Below are positions 3,442-15,100 of a stretch of DNA of 20,037 nt, piece after piece. The first letter of the stretch is position 1. The number at the start of each line of letters is the position of its first letter. The notes under the pieces were generated by a model. The model worked only from the letters and a program-made list of their open reading frames with translations. It was not told the DNA's origin and made no database searches. Source of the stretch: a virus. The stretch is taken from IMG/VR virus record IMGVR_UViG_3300042691_032571, positions 1 through 20,037 of that record; one strand, given 5' to 3'. Position numbers and translations under genes: made by a program.

Positions 3442-3729
3442 TTAAATCTTCTCAATCGCCGCACGCCCGAGAGGAGTGTCGGCCAGATCGCCCAGCGCAT
3501 TCATATAGAGATCGATCATAGCCTGACGTTCGTCGCGCTTTTCTTTATCTTCAGCACGCATCTTAATCACGGCTCGAACGATCTTCACGTCATACCCCGC
3601 AGATTTGACCTCAAGATAGATGTCCTTGATGTCTTCTGCGATTTGGCTCTTGTCGCTTTCGAGCGCCTCGATCCTATCAATGAACGAGGCGAGATGCGAC
3701 GGGTTCAAATTGTGTCCTGCTTTAGCCAT
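3442..3729 (-). CDS. gapR: GapR/DUF2312 family DNA-binding protein
   Basis: This 95-residue protein closely follows the GapR family: FIDRIEALESDKSQIAEDIK, then IYLEVKSAGYDVKIVRAVIKMR and a final helix MIDLYMNALGDLAD. GapR of Caulobacter is a helical clamp that binds overtwisted, AT-rich DNA ahead of replication and transcription and helps topoisomerases. The start used here is the fifth codon of the open frame, because a perfect GGAGG sits 5 nt before that ATG. The protein has the expected long coiled-coil helix, basic residues and length. A strong hairpin lies in the leader just upstream. A role in phage DNA topology during replication is likely; competition with the host GapR is an alternative. 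Confidence 0.88.
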   Translation of the reverse strand: MAKAGHNLNPSHLASFIDRIEALESDKSQIAEDIKDIYLEVKSAGYDVKIVRAVIKMRAEDKEKRDERQAMIDLYMNALGDLADTPLGRAAIEKI

Positions 3730-5323: not shown

Positions 5324-5353
5324 TTGACAAAGGGGACAATTTGTCCCTACCTT
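5324..5353 (+). promoter_or_regulatory. Rightward early promoter
   Basis: A perfect -35 TTGACA (5324-5329) is followed 18 bp later by a weak -10 TACCTT (5348-5353). The second operator fills the spacer, so a bound repressor would block polymerase. Six bases after the -10 comes the ATG at 5360, mirroring the leftward side. Confidence 0.6.
5333..5347. promoter_or_regulatory. Operator copy 2 (inverted repeat)
   Basis: GGGACAATTTGTCCC has perfect 7-bp arms GGGACAA/TTGTCCC around one central base. It differs from the copy at 5299 at one position and lies between the -35 and -10 of the rightward promoter. Confidence 0.7.
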
Positions 5354-5359
5354 CGCCAG

Positions 5360-5557
5360 ATGAGCAAATCACCACTCGATTGGATGCTGATTGACCGCGC
5401 CGCGGAAGCTATTGGCGTCTCTAGGGAAAGTCGCAAGAAATGGCGGCAGCGCAACCATGTCCCATATCGCTGGCGGCTTCCCCTAATCACGCAAACAGGC
5501 GGCCTTCTGTCCGTTAACGATTTCGTTAATCACGACAAAAAAAGGAAAAAACAATGA
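5360..5557 (+). CDS. Small Cro-like HTH regulator (carph-isopro-like)
   Basis: This is a 65-residue protein with a helix-turn-helix: AAEAIGVSRESRKKWRQR followed by NHVPYRWRLPLI. The pattern (short first helix, 'xALGVsxxxVxxWrxRgxIP') matches Cro-like and carph-isopro-type phage regulators. ATG 5360 is chosen because it lies at the predicted start of transcription and the protein begins MSKSPLDW; the frame is open far upstream but there it overlaps the promoter and the divergent gene. There is no ribosome-binding site, consistent with a leaderless mRNA. It probably binds the two GGGACA-N3-TGTCCC operators next to its own promoter and controls both divergent operons. The tail is lysine-rich (HDKKRKKQ). 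Its stop overlaps the resolvase start. Confidence 0.75.
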   Translation: MSKSPLDWMLIDRAAEAIGVSRESRKKWRQRNHVPYRWRLPLITQTGGLLSVNDFVNHDKKRKKQ

Positions 5558-6009
5558 TCAGATGCATCATGGGAGTGGACCCGGGGGCGAGCGGAGCCGT
5601 CGCTTTTTACTTCTTTGAATTTCCTGAAAGGATCGCCGTTTATGACGTGCCCACGGTCGATGGCGAGATCGACTGCGCGGCGCTGGCTGACCTTGTGAAA
5701 AAATTTCAGCCTGACTATGCCGTCATAGAGCGGGTCGGGGCTATGCCTAAGCAGGGTTTGTCGAGCACTTTTAAATTCGGCACCGCATACGGAATGGCCC
5801 GCGGCGTGATTGCTGCAATGAAGACGCCCTACACCTTAGTCGTTCCCGGCGTATGGAAACGGCATTTCCGGCTGCCTCCTGACAAGGAAGCCGCGCGCGC
5901 GTTGGCTATTAGGTTGTGGCCCTCGTCAGAAGGCTTCCGCCGCAAGAAAGACCACGGCCGCGCGGAAGCGGCCCTGATCGCGAAGTTTGGCGCAGACACG
6001 TTGTTCTGA
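5554..6009 (+). CDS. RuvC-like Holliday junction resolvase
   Basis: This is a 151-residue protein with the RNase H-fold layout of phage RuvC-like resolvases: GVDPGASGAVAFY (catalytic D9), a central AVIERVGAMPKQGLSSTFKF (E59, the usual second acid) and a C-terminal KKDHGRAEAALIA with the last acidic cluster. It would resolve branched DNA made during recombination or concatemer processing before packaging. The start overlaps the previous stop (ATGA), with AAGGA upstream, and the stop overlaps the primase-helicase start (TGATG), so the genes are translationally coupled. Confidence 0.85.
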   Translation: MIRCIMGVDPGASGAVAFYFFEFPERIAVYDVPTVDGEIDCAALADLVKKFQPDYAVIERVGAMPKQGLSSTFKFGTAYGMARGVIAAMKTPYTLVVPGVWKRHFRLPPDKEAARALAIRLWPSSEGFRRKKDHGRAEAALIAKFGADTLF

Positions 6010-10054: not shown

Positions 10055-10267
10055 ATGCAGGACAACGCACACACCCGCACGAGCTTAACATTCGAAGAGA
10101 AGATCATCGTGGCGTGGTCGTATCACGTCCGCGGCATCGCGCAGCAAGATCTCGCCTCCATCTTCAACATCAATCAAGGGCGCATCAGCGAGGCGTGCAC
10201 GGCCGTGGAGCGCGCCCTCAAACAGAACGACAAACCCGTCGTCTGGCGCGAGGAAACAGGCAATTAA
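10055..10267 (+). CDS. Small helix-turn-helix DNA-binding protein
   Basis: This is a 70-residue protein of a phage HTH family: LTFEEKIIVAWSYHVRGIAQ then QDLASIFNINQGRISEACTAV, where the second stretch is a clear homeodomain-like or sigma-region-4-like helix-turn-helix. AGGAG lies 6 nt before the ATG. It is the last gene of the rightward early operon and lies directly beside the TGCGGA iteron cluster, so it may bind those repeats as an origin-binding or regulatory protein. That link is inferred from proximity only. Confidence 0.7.
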   Translation: MQDNAHTRTSLTFEEKIIVAWSYHVRGIAQQDLASIFNINQGRISEACTAVERALKQNDKPVVWREETGN

Positions 10268-10282: not shown

Positions 10283-10444
10283 TGCGGATAAATGCGGAAT
10301 AACTGCGGATAAAATCGTCGATTTGCGGATAAAATAGCATAAGTCATTGAAAACACTTGCGGAATAGGATTTGCGGAGAATTGCGGATAAATGCGGATAA
10401 ATTAGCGTAAGTCATTGAAATCATTGGTGCGGAGAATTTGCGGA
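10283..10444. repeat. Iteron cluster: ten TGCGGA repeats, candidate replication origin
   Basis: TGCGGA occurs, all in the same orientation, at 10283, 10293, 10304, 10324, 10358, 10372, 10382, 10392, 10428 and 10439, mostly extended to TGCGGATAAA, TGCGGAATA or TGCGGAGAAT. Many steps are 10, 11 or 20 bp, so most copies share one helical face. The block is AT-rich compared with its surroundings and holds no gene. Iterons next to an HTH gene and downstream of a primase-helicase suggest an origin; an operator array is the alternative. Confidence 0.7.
10324..10420. repeat. 29-bp direct repeat inside the iteron block (two copies, 68 bp apart)
   Basis: Copies at 10324-10352 and 10392-10420 begin with TGCGGATAAA, continue through TAGC and end with TAAGTCATTGAAA; 27 of 29 positions agree. 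The conserved part outside the hexamer suggests a second protein site or a duplicated origin half. Confidence 0.75.
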
Positions 10445-11619: not shown

Positions 11620-11817
11620 TCAGAGAGCCTGTCCCGAGAGCTGGACCTTCAGGCGGAGGAGCTCGACCACCGCCCGGGGCGTTTTTACGCGGCCGGAGAG
11701 CCAGTAGTAGACGGTGCGCTCGGACACGCCGACTAGCTCGGCCAGTTCGCGGTTCAGCATGTTCGCCTGCCAAAGCAAAGCCTTGAGCTCGTCAGGGGTT
11801 GGGGGCGTGGCGGTCAT
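11620..11817 (-). CDS. Small XRE-like HTH regulator at the end of the ArdC island
   Basis: This is a 65-residue protein with one helix-turn-helix domain: TPDELKALLWQANMLNRELA, then ELVGVSERTVYYWLSGRV and a C-terminal helix VVELLRLKVQL. ATG 11817 overlaps the upstream stop (TGATG). It is the last gene before the terminator. Small HTH genes at the tail of phage anti-defence operons, such as Aca proteins of anti-CRISPR operons, repress their own operon promoter; a similar role here is an inference from position and size. Confidence 0.75.
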   Translation of the reverse strand: MTATPPTPDELKALLWQANMLNRELAELVGVSERTVYYWLSGRVKTPRAVVELLRLKVQLSGQAL

Positions 11818-12107
11818 CAGTGATAGACCTCCAGCAGCCAGTCCCGCGCCATCCGCTCGGACCAGCATAGGCGCACGTCGCCGTGAACCGAGACGGCGCG
11901 AAATGCGTTCCCGTCGCGCCGATCCAATTTCGTCGGATTGGCCCAGCCCACGACCTGATCGAACATGGTCAGTGTCAAAGTTCCGTCACCCTCCTGTTTC
12001 CATTGGATTGGGTTGTCATATTTTTGACGCTCCTGCGGCCGCGCAGCGGCGACCGCGTCGAGCATCACGCCGCACAGGTCGGCGATGGATTTCGGCAATT
12101 CGTTCAT
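11817..12107 (-). CDS. Small hypothetical protein of the ArdC island
   Basis: This is a 96-residue protein starting MNELPKSIADL; ATG 12107 is chosen for a strong GAGGAGGG about seven bases upstream, and the longer frame is rejected. It has a helical N-terminus (IADLCGVMLDAVAAA), a beta-rich middle (NPIQWKQEGDGTLTLTMFDQ, VGWANPTKLDRRDGNAF) and an end WSERMARDWLLEVYH. No family is recognised. Its stop overlaps the HTH gene start. Confidence 0.65.
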   Translation of the reverse strand: MNELPKSIADLCGVMLDAVAAARPQERQKYDNPIQWKQEGDGTLTLTMFDQVVGWANPTKLDRRDGNAFRAVSVHGDVRLCWSERMARDWLLEVYH

Positions 12108-12117
12108 CGTTCCCTCC

Positions 12118-12345
12118 TCAATCGATGATTTCCTCGGCGCGGTGGCCCATGAAGTGCGAAATGTCGTCGAGCGCCCGTTGGGCTGTGTAGAGATCGCCGG
12201 CGGACCAGCCGACGATTTCAAAGCCCCGGCGGCGCACCTCGCGCAGGAACCGCTGCGCCTCCTCACGGTCGCCAAACACAAATGTCTCCTCGCCCCATGT
12301 CAGGTTGGGGCGAGGGAACTTCACGACGTAACGATAGAAATTCAT
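12118..12345 (-). CDS. Small hypothetical protein of the ArdC island
   Basis: This is a 75-residue protein. It opens with a strand (MNFYRYVVKFPRP), then ETFVFGDREEAQRFLREVRR, strand RGFEIVGWSAG and a helix ALDDISHFMGHRAEE: a small beta-alpha-beta layout like that of the other mini-proteins in this island. GAGGAGG lies 6 nt before the ATG. The function is unknown. Confidence 0.65.
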   Translation of the reverse strand: MNFYRYVVKFPRPNLTWGEETFVFGDREEAQRFLREVRRRGFEIVGWSAGDLYTAQRALDDISHFMGHRAEEIID

Positions 12346-12355
12346 TCCAGCCTCC

Positions 12356-12703
12356 TCAGATCGACTTGATCACGATGCGCTTCGAACGCTCAAACGTGGC
12401 GCACGCGGCGAACGCGTCCGCGCTCAAAACTTTGCGGGCGGCCTCGACCTTGATCGAGGCGAGCGCCATAAACACGCTCGGCGTCGTCACGCGACGCACG
12501 GCGGCGGGGTCCAGCGCGGCGCGCTCGACCTCGCTCACCTGCAAGCGGTGTTCGAAGCCGGGGGCGCTGGCCTCGCCGCTTTTGAGCAGCGCGTCGGCGA
12601 GTTCGGCCTTCTCGGCCTCCAGCGCCTTGATTTCTTTCGTGATGGCGACGTAGCGCTCGACCTGCTCGGCGGTGAGGGCGGGGATCAGGGACACGTTCAG
12701 CAT
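12356..12703 (-). CDS. Coiled-coil hypothetical protein of the ArdC island
   Basis: This is a 115-residue protein starting MLNVSLIPAL; ATG 12703 has GGAGG five bases upstream. Residues 10-40 form a coiled coil (EQVERYVAITKEIKALEAEK), followed by a segment FEHRLQVSEVERAALDPAAV and a C-terminal helical part. The order (coiled coil, then a short beta segment) is loosely like Gam-type or RecF-associated phage proteins, but I cannot name it. It is the first gene after promoter copy 1. Confidence 0.65.
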   Translation of the reverse strand: MLNVSLIPALTAEQVERYVAITKEIKALEAEKAELADALLKSGEASAPGFEHRLQVSEVERAALDPAAVRRVTTPSVFMALASIKVEAARKVLSADAFAACATFERSKRIVIKSI

Positions 12704-12748: not shown

Positions 12749-12778
12749 AGGATAGCATGAAGAAATTGCAGCCGTCAA
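12749..12778 (-). promoter_or_regulatory. Island promoter copy 1
   Basis: On the - strand, -35 TTGACG (12778-12773), 18-bp spacer, -10 TATCCT (12754-12749). The -35 box overlaps the end of ardC. About 23 of 30 positions agree with promoter copies 2 and 3, and the downstream region shares CTGTAGATG with copy 2. Confidence 0.65.
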
Positions 12779-13629
12779 GCGGCTGCAAGCTCCTCTTGCG
12801 AACCCTGCTTGCGCAGGAACTCCACGGCTTGGCTCGCCTTGCTGGCGGCGGTCATAAACGCCTGCGGGTCGTTTTTCACCAGCTCAATCCAGTGTTGGAT
12901 ATAGGCGGCGTGCTGGGTGACGGCGTCGAGCCCCAGCTCGGCGCAGAGAAACGCTGCGCCCAGCTCGGCGACCAGTTCCTCGGCCGCATATGCGTTGTCG
13001 CCAAAGCGCTTGCCAAACTGGCGGTTGCAGCGGCTCTCGTGCCCGGTCCAATGCACCAGCTCGTGCAGGGCCGTTGCGTAATAGCTCGCGCGGCTATCGA
13101 ACCGCTCGAACGCCGGCAGGCGGATCTCGTCGCCTGAGGGGCGATAAAAGGCGCGGTCGCCGCCATGGTGGATCACGGCGCCCGTGGCGGCGATGAACGC
13201 GTCACAGACCGCGTCGCGCTCGTCGGGGTTGATCGCCAGCGGCGCAGGCGCGTCGAGATCGAGACCGTCGCACTGCTCGACGTTGAACACGGTGAATGAT
13301 TTCAAAAACGGGATAGACGCCACATTGCCCGCGTCGTCGGATTTCTCGAACCGCGAGACGAACGTCACGGTCGTCCCCTTCTCGCCCTTGCGCACGGACC
13401 CGCCCAGCTCCTGCGCCTGCTTGAACGTCAGCCATTGGTTCGAGGAATAGCCATGTTCCTGTTGCGTGATCCAGAGCAGGATGACGTTCGCGCCCGAATA
13501 AGCGCGCCCGGTGCGGGCGTTCTTGGGCAGGCCCGCGTTCGTGCTGCTCCACGGCTTCACCCACGGGAGCACGCCCGTCTCCATGGCGGCGAGGATGCGG
13601 TCGGCGATTTCTTTCTGAAGGTTGCGCAT
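12775..13629 (-). CDS. ardC: ArdC-like anti-restriction protein (ssDNA-binding plus zincin domain)
   Basis: This is a 284-residue protein matching ArdC. The N-terminal domain (about 1-125; KEIADRILAAMETGVLPWVK, NARTGRAYSGANVILLW) is the ssDNA-binding DUF1738 domain. The C-terminal domain is a zincin-type metallopeptidase fold with the zinc motif HELVHWTGH (about 187-195) and the downstream EELVAELGAAFLC helix that supplies the third ligand. ArdC proteins are known from conjugative plasmids and phages and protect incoming DNA from type I and some type II restriction. ATG 13629 is chosen because GGAG lies seven bases upstream. It has its own promoter (copy 2). Confidence 0.9.
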   Translation of the reverse strand: MRNLQKEIADRILAAMETGVLPWVKPWSSTNAGLPKNARTGRAYSGANVILLWITQQEHGYSSNQWLTFKQAQELGGSVRKGEKGTTVTFVSRFEKSDDAGNVASIPFLKSFTVFNVEQCDGLDLDAPAPLAINPDERDAVCDAFIAATGAVIHHGGDRAFYRPSGDEIRLPAFERFDSRASYYATALHELVHWTGHESRCNRQFGKRFGDNAYAAEELVAELGAAFLCAELGLDAVTQHAAYIQHWIELVKNDPQAFMTAASKASQAVEFLRKQGSQEELAAA

Positions 13630-13669
13630 GGGTAACTCCATCTACAGCTAAGGTTGCGATTACCAGATC

Positions 13670-13699
13670 AGAATAGCATGAAATATTTTCACCTGTCAA
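13670..13699 (-). promoter_or_regulatory. Island promoter copy 2 (upstream of ardC)
   Basis: On the - strand, -35 TTGACA (13699-13694), 18-bp spacer, -10 TATTCT (13675-13670). The 30 bp at 13676-13705 match promoter copy 3 at 29 positions. The spacer contains TGAAATATTTTCA (13679-13691), a 5-bp inverted repeat around ATA, a possible operator. Confidence 0.75.
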
Positions 13700-13703
13700 A
13701 CGC

Positions 13704-13868
13704 CTATTTCACCTCCCTGTGGGCCACGAAATAATAAAACGGGTTGTGCGCCTTGCTGTTGAGCGCGAGCGCATGGGCCGCAGCCTCATCGCGCGAATAG
13801 AAAACAGCGACGACCGTGGCGCTGCCGGACACGGTGGGGATGATGCGTTGCGCGAGAACCTCAAACAT
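13704..13868 (-). CDS. Mini-protein of the ArdC island
   Basis: This is a 54-residue protein; ATG 13868 is chosen because AGGAG lies about seven bases upstream. The layout is strand (MFEVLAQRIIPTV), strand TVVAVFYS, helix RDEAAAHALALN and strand FYYFVAHREV. The AHALAL helix and following aromatic strand resemble those in the protein at 14397, so the two are probably paralogues. It overlaps the previous gene by 8 bp. The function is unknown. Confidence 0.6.
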   Translation of the reverse strand: MFEVLAQRIIPTVSGSATVVAVFYSRDEAAAHALALNSKAHNPFYYFVAHREVK

Positions 13869-14076
13869 GGCCTGCTCCTTTGGCGAAAGCTTCAATCTTG
13901 TTACCTAACTCAGAGCGGCAGGTGCTGAAGGTCTCATCTTCCCAGCCTGTGCCGATCAGCCAATAGCCCCAGCCCATATCGTCGCGCTCGCATTTGATAG
14001 TTAGCCCCAACTCAGCCGCGCGCTTGCGCAATTCCTTCAAGCTCTTCGCTTTGCGGTAATGTTTTTGGAATGTCAT
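13861..14076 (-). CDS. Small hypothetical protein of the ArdC island
   Basis: This is a 71-residue protein: helix KSLKELRKRAAELGLTIKC, then DDMGWGYWLIGTGWEDE and a C-terminal helix. ATG 14076 has GGAG six bases upstream inside a leader that is repeated before the next gene. No family is recognised. Confidence 0.6.
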   Translation of the reverse strand: MTFQKHYRKAKSLKELRKRAAELGLTIKCERDDMGWGYWLIGTGWEDETFSTCRSELGNKIEAFAKGAGHV

Positions 14077-14082
14077 ATCGAT

Positions 14083-14102
14083 CTCCATCAGGTGAGAGGG
14101 TG
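14083..14102 (-). repeat. Duplicated gene leader (copies at 14083, 14356 and, diverged, 14616)
   Basis: The 20 bases CTCCATCAGGTGAGAGGGTG (+ strand) at 14083-14102 recur exactly at 14356-14375, in each case just upstream of an island gene; they contain that gene's GGAG ribosome-binding site on the - strand. A diverged copy starts at about 14616 before a third gene. Confidence 0.8.
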
Positions 14103-14114
14103 AGAGTTGAAACG

Positions 14115-14348
14115 TCAGGCGCGACCCGCCTGTTTATTCAGCCACGTTATCGTCGCATCGAGCCATTCGTCGTAGCTCATGTCGCAGCCATATGCGTTTG
14201 CGGCCGCGTCATGCACGCTGCAACGCGCTTGCCACAGTTTTTCTCGATCAATGTCATCAATTAGTTCGTCGAACAAATCGCGCCCGTTATTCGTCCAGAT
14301 CGCCAGTGCTTGTGCGACGATTTTTTCGAGGCGTGTTTCATATTCCAT
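14115..14348 (-). CDS. Small acidic hypothetical protein of the ArdC island
   Basis: This is a 77-residue, helical, acidic protein (LFDELIDDIDREKLWQARCS, YDEWLDATITWLNKQ). GGAG about eight bases upstream belongs to the duplicated leader. Small acidic proteins in phage anti-defence regions are sometimes DNA mimics; the acidic centre (DELIDDID) makes that thinkable but unproven. Confidence 0.6.
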   Translation of the reverse strand: MEYETRLEKIVAQALAIWTNNGRDLFDELIDDIDREKLWQARCSVHDAAANAYGCDMSYDEWLDATITWLNKQAGRA

Positions 14349-14374
14349 CTGATTTCTCCATCAGGTGAGAGGGT

Positions 14375-14390
14375 GGGGGCCGGAGCCCCC
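14375..14390 (-). other. Intercistronic hairpin, copy A
   Basis: GGGGGC and GCCCCC arms surround a 4-base loop. It is attached to the second exact copy of the duplicated leader. No T-tract follows on either strand, so an RNA-processing or stability role is more likely than termination. Confidence 0.6.
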
Positions 14391-14396
14391 AATTTG

Positions 14397-14606
14397 TCAG
14401 TCGCGCCTGATATGCGGGATGTCGAGCGAGAGCATATGTGCCTCGTCGAGCGTCTGCGTGGTCCAGACACGCTGCTGGTGGATGATGTCGTAATTGTCGC
14501 CGGTCTGCTCTTTCAGAGCCAGCGCGTGCGCCTTGGCGGCGGACAGTTCTTCAAACGCGGCGAGGTTTTTGATGATGCTGCGGTCCTTGGGGACAACGTA
14601 AAACAT
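14397..14606 (-). CDS. Small hypothetical protein, probable paralogue of the 54-residue protein
   Basis: This is a 69-residue protein starting MFYVVPKDRSII; ATG 14606 has GAGGAG seven bases upstream. After the first strand comes FEELSAAKAHALALKEQTG, then strand YDIIHQQRVW and the C-terminal LDEAHMLSLDIPHIRRD. The AHALAL helix followed by an aromatic strand ending in H and RxV is shared with the protein at 13704, so a duplication is likely. The function is unknown. Confidence 0.62.
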   Translation of the reverse strand: MFYVVPKDRSIIKNLAAFEELSAAKAHALALKEQTGDNYDIIHQQRVWTTQTLDEAHMLSLDIPHIRRD

Positions 14607-14632
14607 GGCGTACTCCTCATCAGGTGGAAGGT

Positions 14633-14648
14633 GGGGGCCTAAGCCCCC
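14633..14648 (-). other. Intercistronic hairpin, copy B
   Basis: GGGGGC and GCCCCC arms surround a CTAA loop. It lies in the leader of the 14397-14606 gene, in the same relative place as copy A before its neighbour. Confidence 0.6.
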
Positions 14649-14655
14649 GCTTGTT

Positions 14656-14976
14656 TCAGAAATTGTAATCGTGGAACCGGCGCGGGCGCGTCGAGAGCGA
14701 ATAGCGGCTGCCGTATTTGTCCTTCCAGCCCTTCTTGCCAAGGCGGATGCGGAACGTCGGGCGCGTCGGGTCGCTCAGGATAACCCAGCGCTGTTCGTCT
14801 TGATTGGTGCAGTGGCCGACGAAGCCGCCGGGGACAACCTCAGGCGTCCACGTCGTGTCGCGGTTCGCGATCATGCCGCGGATCTCCACGGTCTTGTCGC
14901 TCACGACGCGCACGATCTCGAATGGCGTCACGTCGCTGTAGTCGATCCGGTTCGCGAAAGAGAAGGTCGAGGTCAT
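14656..14976 (-). CDS. Conserved small protein, first gene of the ArdC island
   Basis: This is a 106-residue, beta-rich protein whose pattern I have seen in phage and plasmid proteins of unknown function: YSDVTPFEIVRVVSDKTVEI, then PGGFVGHCTNQDEQRWVI, a basic FRIRLGKKGWKDKYG and a terminal SLSTRPRRFHDYNF. The many strands and the basic patch near residues 78-85 would suit nucleic-acid binding, but no catalytic residues are evident. AGGAG lies about eight bases before the ATG. Promoter copy 3 is upstream. Confidence 0.68.
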   Translation of the reverse strand: MTSTFSFANRIDYSDVTPFEIVRVVSDKTVEIRGMIANRDTTWTPEVVPGGFVGHCTNQDEQRWVILSDPTRPTFRIRLGKKGWKDKYGSRYSLSTRPRRFHDYNF

Positions 14977-15020
14977 ATTCAGCTCCTATGGTCAAGCTAC
15001 AGTAAACATCATTCACAAAC

Positions 15021-15051
15021 ATATAGGGCATGAAATATTTTCACCTGTCAA
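15021..15051 (-). promoter_or_regulatory. Island promoter copy 3
   Basis: On the - strand, -35 TTGACA (15051-15046) with a -10 CTATAT (15026-15021), spacer 19 bp. The 30 bp at 15028-15057 match copy 2 at 29 positions, including the TGAAATATTTTCA inverted repeat (15031-15043). The longer spacer would make it weaker than copy 2. It faces away from the terminase genes. Confidence 0.65.
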
Positions 15052-15100
15052 GCGCCTTTAAAAACCCTTATATTCTAGTGGGTTATGAGGGAGCTTAACC

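Follow-up and report, generated by a model that had tools for sequence, protein, structure and literature searches.

Three operator-promoters and a small helix-turn-helix protein: probably a self-limiting switch, resembling regulators of anti-CRISPR genes, in uncultivated phages

In a virus record of 20,037 bases (IMG/VR record IMGVR_UViG_3300042691_032571, complete, here called the window), three similar promoter elements stand in and before one leftward block of genes that includes ardC, which encodes an antirestriction protein. These repeats raise the question of what is conserved in them and which protein, if any, governs them together. We determined that the key feature is an operator, not the promoter match itself. 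It is a dyad in the promoter spacer, to which a small DNA-binding protein, the product of the gene that closes the block, very probably binds. Our analysis indicates that the elements very probably form part of a self-limiting switch, similar to the regulators of anti-CRISPR (acr) genes and found again in many uncultivated phages.

Promoter elements and the dyad in their spacer

The three elements lie where the first-pass annotation had placed them, all on the minus strand, with -35 hexamers that start at 12778 (TTGACG), 13699 (TTGACA), and 15051 (TTGACA). A pooled 24-base pattern matched exactly these three sites in the window and none in 100 dinucleotide shuffles, a match far beyond chance. 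The search of the rest of the genome that had been proposed returned the perfect 24-mer at copies 2 and 3 only, and elsewhere in IMG/VR nothing identical or nearly identical to the 24-base element of the window was found. The identities given in that annotation hold in part. A match of copies 2 and 3 at 29 of 30 positions is correct in a frame shifted upstream (13676-13705 versus 15028-15057, comprising -35, spacer, and upstream flank and excluding the -10); from -35 to -10, these two copies agree at only 25 positions. In register from the -35 over 30 bases, identity was 25/30 for copies 2 and 3, 23/30 for copies 1 and 2, and 19/30 for copies 1 and 3. Because of these in-register values, the shared part is the -35 plus the spacer, and the -10 is not common to copies 2 and 3. 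Copies 1 and 2 also have a 5' leader in common (73% over 67 bases), and no hairpin in the window's own leaders folded better than shuffles. The genes behind the copies are unrelated, and therefore a recent segmental duplication including the genes was ruled out. The cassette-like growth that had been suggested for the island is plausible: the promoter-leader unit repeats, and the genes behind it differ within the window and between phages.

The conserved core of the elements consists of the -35 and a 13-bp dyad, TGAAAATATTTCA, in the spacer. This confirms the inverted repeat seen earlier in two copies, TGAAATATTTTCA, which is TGAAAATATTTCA on the promoter strand; its five-base arms are perfect in copies 2 and 3. 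The degenerate form in copy 1 (Table 1) ranks third among the 25 TTGAC sites of the window, the next best matching at 6 of 13 positions. A strong terminator-like hairpin (-15.2 kcal/mol; z, -4.3), trailed by a T-rich stretch, marks the end of ardC; its loop is where the -35 of copy 1 lies, and the damage to the copy 1 dyad may come from this second use. For the co-ordinated strong early expression that had been suggested, the poorly placed -10 of copy 3 offers no support, and a dyad that fills the spacer suggests that a repressor closes the promoter, not that an activator opens it. We rejected the dyad as an RNA hairpin because transcripts from its own promoter would begin downstream of it; in addition, shuffled sequences folded as well as the copy 2 stretch did. 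A further 12/13 match to the operator dyad, TGAAAAAATTTCA at 5696-5708, lies inside the gene at 5554-6009 without a -35 and is perhaps due to chance.

Recurrence of the operator with an HTH gene

To place the elements among relatives, we used 80 IMG/VR loci collected via the large terminase (TerL), which with the window make 81. The pattern TTGAC-N3..6-GAA-N5-TTC gave 36 matches in 20 of these loci, every one leftward, on the strand leading away from terS/terL, and ten control patterns gave 1 to 6 matches each. Across 24 whole records, the pattern was matched 28 times and the reversed pattern 0 times. When any 13-bp palindrome behind TTGAC was accepted, it was found at 32 of 988 minus-strand sites versus 8 of 911 plus-strand sites (displaced controls, 1 to 8). 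The outer bases of the dyad differ by phage (C..G, G..C, T..A, or A..T) and are mostly symmetric, and such symmetric change fits the expectation for a DNA operator. Stems of at least 6 upstream of the promoter occurred in 13 of the 107 distinct sites from relatives and window (0 to 2 in shuffles); a terminator upstream of every promoter was therefore rejected, terminators being present in some and not the rule.

Many relatives also have a leader hairpin, CGGTC-loop-GACCG, between the promoter and the ribosome site, with the variants GGTT/AACC, CCGC/GCGG, and GGCT/AGCC (for example, L026:2908 [-], L029:130 [-], and L096:2885 [+]). A stem of at least 5 was found in 46 of the 107 sites, versus 1 to 4 in shuffles; the hairpin is absent in the window. 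It could stabilise the mRNA or be a second control point.

In the window and in L004, L024, L026, and L078, the leftward block ends with a gene for a small helix-turn-helix (HTH) protein. A hidden Markov model built from these proteins extended the set to further loci. Of the loci that reach 5 kb or more upstream of terL, 24 in all, 11 have the operator together with the HTH gene, 13 lack both, and none has just one of them. Over all 81 loci, 11 had both, 9 the operator only, 2 the HTH gene only, and 59 neither. A scan of IMG/VR by the DNA architecture pattern alone fetched 63 stretches, and the model found an HTH gene in 45 of them, 44 times on the same strand and 99 to 3724 bases downstream. 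Most of the 18 stretches without an HTH gene end soon past the operator; L093, L105, and L143 extend 2.4 to 8.7 kb further. The same pattern gave 15 matches in a bacterial genome collection, and a prophage origin was rejected, 14 of these being without the HTH gene. The remaining one, with operator and HTH gene, is a 58.6-kb contig under an Opitutae bin (L160) and is probably a misbinned phage.

Next, we compared the residue at position 16 of the HTH helix with the outer base of the operator. In a first set of 55 loci (22 protein clusters), all 22 clusters agreed: Gln, Glu, or Asp went with C (14 clusters), Thr, Asn, or Gly with A or G (5 clusters), and Ile or Tyr with T (3 clusters), with a permutation P value of 5e-5. 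Among all HTH columns, the one for position 16 ranked highest (z, 6.9; next, 4.3). Three further scans with class patterns (T, G, and A) supplied 96 loci and 25 HTH proteins. For all 25 proteins the operator was on the same strand, and none carried Gln, Glu, or Asp: the T class had Phe, Ile, or Met (9/9), the G class Asn, Arg, or Thr (13/13), and the A class His, Ser, and Thr. A rule fixed beforehand predicted 13 of 19 distinct further proteins. In the combined set, 33 of 33 clusters paired without exception, Gln, Glu, or Asp with C; Arg, Asn, Thr, Ser, or His with A or G; and Ile, Phe, Met, or Tyr with T. On a tree built without the position 16 column, there were six label changes. Independent contrasts are few, so a sign test cannot reach significance and the permutation values overstate the evidence. 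At the level of sequence, the co-occurrence of operator and HTH gene and the covariation of helix and dyad support well the earlier suspicion of one regulator, the 65-residue HTH protein.

An Aca-like autorepressor weighed against its alternatives

What kind of regulator this might be was examined by family and structure searches. Pfam gave the generic HTH_3 for the 65-residue protein (24.0 bits; cut-off, 23.0), PHROGs matched it to generic regulators, NCBIfam had no family above its cut-off, and PADLOC returned a weak mad1 match only. In a PDB profile search, the best full-domain match was Aca2 (5e-5), followed by the 434 repressor, a probable regulator, HigA-2, and Aca3; the top-scoring rows, BurrH, were discarded as artefacts of repeats, in which no single stretch passed by itself. 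The AlphaFold2 model (pLDDT, 87.5; pTM, 0.68) was closest in VIA-align to SO3848 (Z, 10.0), Aca2 (9.8), Aca10 (9.5), and Aca1 (9.0), the top nine rows spanning 8.7 to 10.0. Other Aca2 and Aca7 entries scored 7.1 to 7.8, and unrelated POU and MqsA chains scored 8.0 to 8.3; with unrelated chains at similar Z values, the fold match is supportive and not decisive. Foldseek ranked HigA2 and Aca1 together with weak E values. By this weak similarity of sequence and model, the nearest solved relatives appear to be the anti-CRISPR-associated repressors Aca1, Aca2, and Aca10.

In a sequence alignment, Arg34 and Tyr37 of the window protein correspond to R30 and Q33 of Aca2, which are among the residues listed for promoter recognition in the available part of PMC9410881. 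Published Aca operators, as an excerpt of PMC9410906 has it, are situated in the core promoter, and in most cases repression was lost once they were scrambled. Because of this and the likeness to Aca proteins, we read the protein as an Aca-like autorepressor by its probable mode of action. The arrangement is also that of an Aca system, in that the inverted repeat lies inside the core promoter and the small HTH protein is encoded downstream in the operon, here in the window and in 44 of the 63 pattern-fetched loci.

Among the known systems, Aca2 of Pectobacterium phage ZF40 (acrIF8-aca2) is likewise a small HTH protein encoded downstream in the operon that it controls, with both proposed specificity residues aligning and, according to the part of PMC8434428 available, a core promoter that contains an inverted repeat. 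It differs in being about 120 residues long with an extra C-terminal domain, versus 65 to 78 residues here, and in being described at a single acr-aca promoter. Aca2 also binds RNA. Aca1 of Pseudomonas phage JBD30 and relatives was the best PDB match when the window protein was searched alone (7.6e-4); the similarity spans about 40 residues only (tblastn E value, 0.01), and Aca1 has a different operator and one promoter. Among phage records matched by the window protein, 94 of 97 were Pseudomonas phages, and in MP29 the gene lies beside protease/scaffold. The MP29 match (L163, 1501-1695) starts 90 bases upstream of the annotated ORF32, which may therefore be annotated too short. Aca10, according to excerpts of PMC9410881, is a dimeric HTH protein whose palindrome overlaps a TTGCAA-N16-TATTCT promoter; unlike the dyad here, that palindrome is 19 to 21 bp long and serves one acr operon. 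A shared element before scattered early genes, usable as bait for anti-defence genes, is described for archaeal viruses in an excerpt of PMC11065993, which concerns archaeal promoters and mentions no recognition code of a cognate regulator.

We therefore favour, with a probability of about 0.78, the reading that the three elements serve as operator-promoters for a single leftward regulon that includes ardC, under an Aca-like autorepressor. Polymerase with the housekeeping sigma factor would start the leftward transcripts when the phage DNA enters. As the HTH protein accumulates, a dimer would bind the dyad (half-site N-G-A-A) between -35 and -10; the invariant G would be read by Arg34 at helix position 13, and the outer base, which varies, by Tyr37 at position 16. 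From the anatomy of the promoters and from Aca proteins, the bound dimer would be expected to block polymerase and so to shut down all copies and its own gene. Copies 2 and 3, with perfect dyads, would be shut off first; copy 1, whose dyad is weakened and which lies closest to the regulator gene, would remain active for longer. An effect of the copy 3 operator on the divergent side, towards terS, is also possible.

Several observations weigh against this autorepressor reading. Copy 3 has no -10 at the 18-base spacing (CTATAT stands at 19 or TATATG at 20 instead) and so falls outside the sigma-70 rule of hexamers with a 16- to 18-base spacer, which copies 1 and 2 fit, and the dyad of copy 1 is damaged. 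The likeness to Aca proteins is weak and is shared in part with the 434 repressor and HigA antitoxins. In the covariation, the 6 of 19 further proteins that the rule left over carry residues that it does not cover (Arg in five, His in one), all with purine operators; the independent contrasts number 3 on all branches and 1 on well-supported ones, with a sign test that is not significant. The pairing of Tyr with T was seen only in the window protein, which is itself divergent, on a long branch and without the C-terminal part of its relatives.

The alternatives have to account for the same spacer. If the elements were simply housekeeping promoters, copied as a strong early promoter around an incidental dyad, then the perfect or nearly perfect -35, the acceptable -10 in two copies, and the leader shared by copies 1 and 2 would be explained. 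However, sigma-70 needs no spacer sequence, and yet the spacer is the best conserved part while the -10 differs between copies 2 and 3; the dyad also persists in relatives, with its outer bases changing symmetrically. We consider this explanation quite improbable. The dyad could instead be the operator of another protein, either a host repressor, which a phage could in principle exploit, or one of the phage's two other small HTH-like proteins. One of these, of 70 residues (10055-10267, +), has weak HTH matches; the other, of 64 residues (about 5363-5557, +), looks DNA binding by eye only, has no Pfam family, and has a different dyad promoter of its own directly in front (GGGACAATTTGTCCC, 5324, +). 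That the outer base follows the helix of the module's HTH protein over 33 clusters would be unexpected for a host protein, and another owner of the dyad is in our view highly unlikely.

MerR-type activators bind over-long promoter spacers, and the 19- to 20-base spacer of copy 3 would suit an HTH protein that activates in this manner from inside the spacer. Such a length is rare, being found in 6 of the 107 sites and within the window only in copy 3, and the spacer is 17 or 18 bases long in 78, where no such help is needed. The predicted fold is that of a Cro/Aca-type HTH protein, and the characterised Aca relatives repress, as far as the excerpt of PMC9410906 reports. Activation is thus a very remote prospect, and repression by the HTH protein is the reading that we retain.

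In the portions of the published accounts available (PMC8434428, PMC9410881, and PMC9410906), Aca proteins are autorepressors that each act on a single operon with anti-CRISPR genes. An Aca-like logic would here be spread over 2 to 4 separate promoters in several phages, with ardC beneath it and no recognised acr gene. A wider proposal, to which we give even odds, is that multi-promoter regulons of accessory genes in uncultivated tailed phages are governed by a large, unnamed family of Aca-like repressors, that helix position 16 sets the outer base of NGAA-N5-TTCN, and that protein and operators have repeatedly been re-tuned together. If so, the accessory genes would include ardC, DNA methyltransferases, a helicase, clamp-like proteins, and dozens of small unknowns, and a readable position 16 code would let the operator serve as bait for new anti-defence genes. 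This opens to direct testing both a recognition code of one residue to one base within a natural repressor family and the operator-guided finding of anti-defence genes in uncultured phages. No description of this regulon was found in the open-licence PubMed Central literature, a scope that leaves subscription papers and preprints outside.

Genes behind the operator and other features of the window

The first start codon lies 22 to 66 bases (median, 50) from the operator at 134 sites, and the genes behind these sites form 128 clusters. A coiled-coil-like protein is the commonest cargo, encoded first behind the operator in 55 of 62 cases. Behind it in L004, L008, and L026 come a SPIQL-type protein and then the HTH protein, and copy 1 of the window has the same gene order plus one small inserted gene. 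The coiled-coil-like protein of the window is a likely relative of this commonest first gene (same place; weak identity, 15 to 23%). Other phages carry a UvrD-type helicase, a beta-clamp-like protein, and C5 methyltransferases where the window has ArdC. Anti-defence is hinted at only by ArdC and perhaps the methyltransferases, and we use the label "anti-defence regulon" as a hypothesis. Searches of the block with Pfam, PHROGs, and PADLOC, none of which is an acr gene library, found ardC and no acr gene.

Table 1. Promoters, dyads, and genes of the leftward block in the window
Feature	Position	Strand	Remarks
Small HTH protein, 65 residues, proposed autorepressor	11620..11817	-	Last gene of block; Arg34 and Tyr37 in recognition helix
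Conserved protein, function not known, "NPIQW/SPIQL" family	11817..12107	-	Just upstream of HTH gene
Small protein without confident family	12118..12345	-	
Coiled-coil-like protein behind promoter copy 1	12356..12703	-	
Promoter copy 1	12749..12778	-	TTGACG, 18-base spacer, TATCCT; -35 overlaps ardC stop codon
Degenerate operator TGCAATTTCTTCA, copy 1	12758..12770	-	9/13 to dyad
Terminator-like hairpin TTGCAGCCGCTTGACGGCTGCAA, then TTTCTTC	12766..12788	-	ardC end, overlapping promoter copy 1
ArdC-type antirestriction protein	12775..13629	-	ArdcN plus zincin-like peptidase domain; PF08401 2.5e-40, PF18818 2.4e-50
Promoter copy 2	13670..13699	-	TTGACA, 18-base spacer, TATTCT; before ardC
Putative operator dyad TGAAAATATTTCA, copy 2 spacer	13679..13691	-	
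Two small proteins, function not known, behind promoter copy 3	13704..14076	-	
Small protein, function not known	14115..14348	-	
Small protein with look-alikes in other operator regulons	14397..14606	-	Family of 7, MYYVVPKDRS...
First gene behind promoter copy 3	14656..14976	-	phrog_19789, function not known
Promoter copy 3	15020..15051	-	TTGACA; -10 displaced; in divergent gap before terS
Putative operator dyad TGAAAATATTTCA, copy 3 spacer	15031..15043	-	
Possible rightward promoter towards terS	15045..15074	+	CTGTCA, 18 bases, TATATT; consensus match only; adjoins copy 3 operator

Within the block, a leader of the form CACCTGATG..GGAG is repeated before consecutive small genes (14082-14400 and 14616-14650), with GGGGGC..GCCCCC hairpins, and forms another recurring cassette joint. 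The design of the three elements is also seen in a promoter at 5324-5353 (+), with TTGACA, an 18-base spacer that holds the dyad GGGACAATTTGTCCC, and TACCTT. It stands directly before the 64-residue frame, Cro-like by eye, and is divergent from a PD-(D/E)XK nuclease gene; promoter and frame look like an independent autoregulated switch. A GapR-like DNA-binding protein is encoded at 3442-3729 (PF10073, 2e-27), and similar-looking genes in relatives (L004:5968-6267, L008:5725-6021, and L024:3274-3567) lie next to the divergent gap, on the side opposite the first operator. An intergenic gap at 10304-10423 contains two AT-rich 52-base repeats (TGCGGATAAA...TAGCRTAAGTCATTGAAA, 77%), which are iteron-like. 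Finally, about 700 bases at 1290-1980 consist of degenerate short GCC-rich repeats, with 15 copies of a 42-mer at 62 to 76% of the reference and long open frames on both strands.

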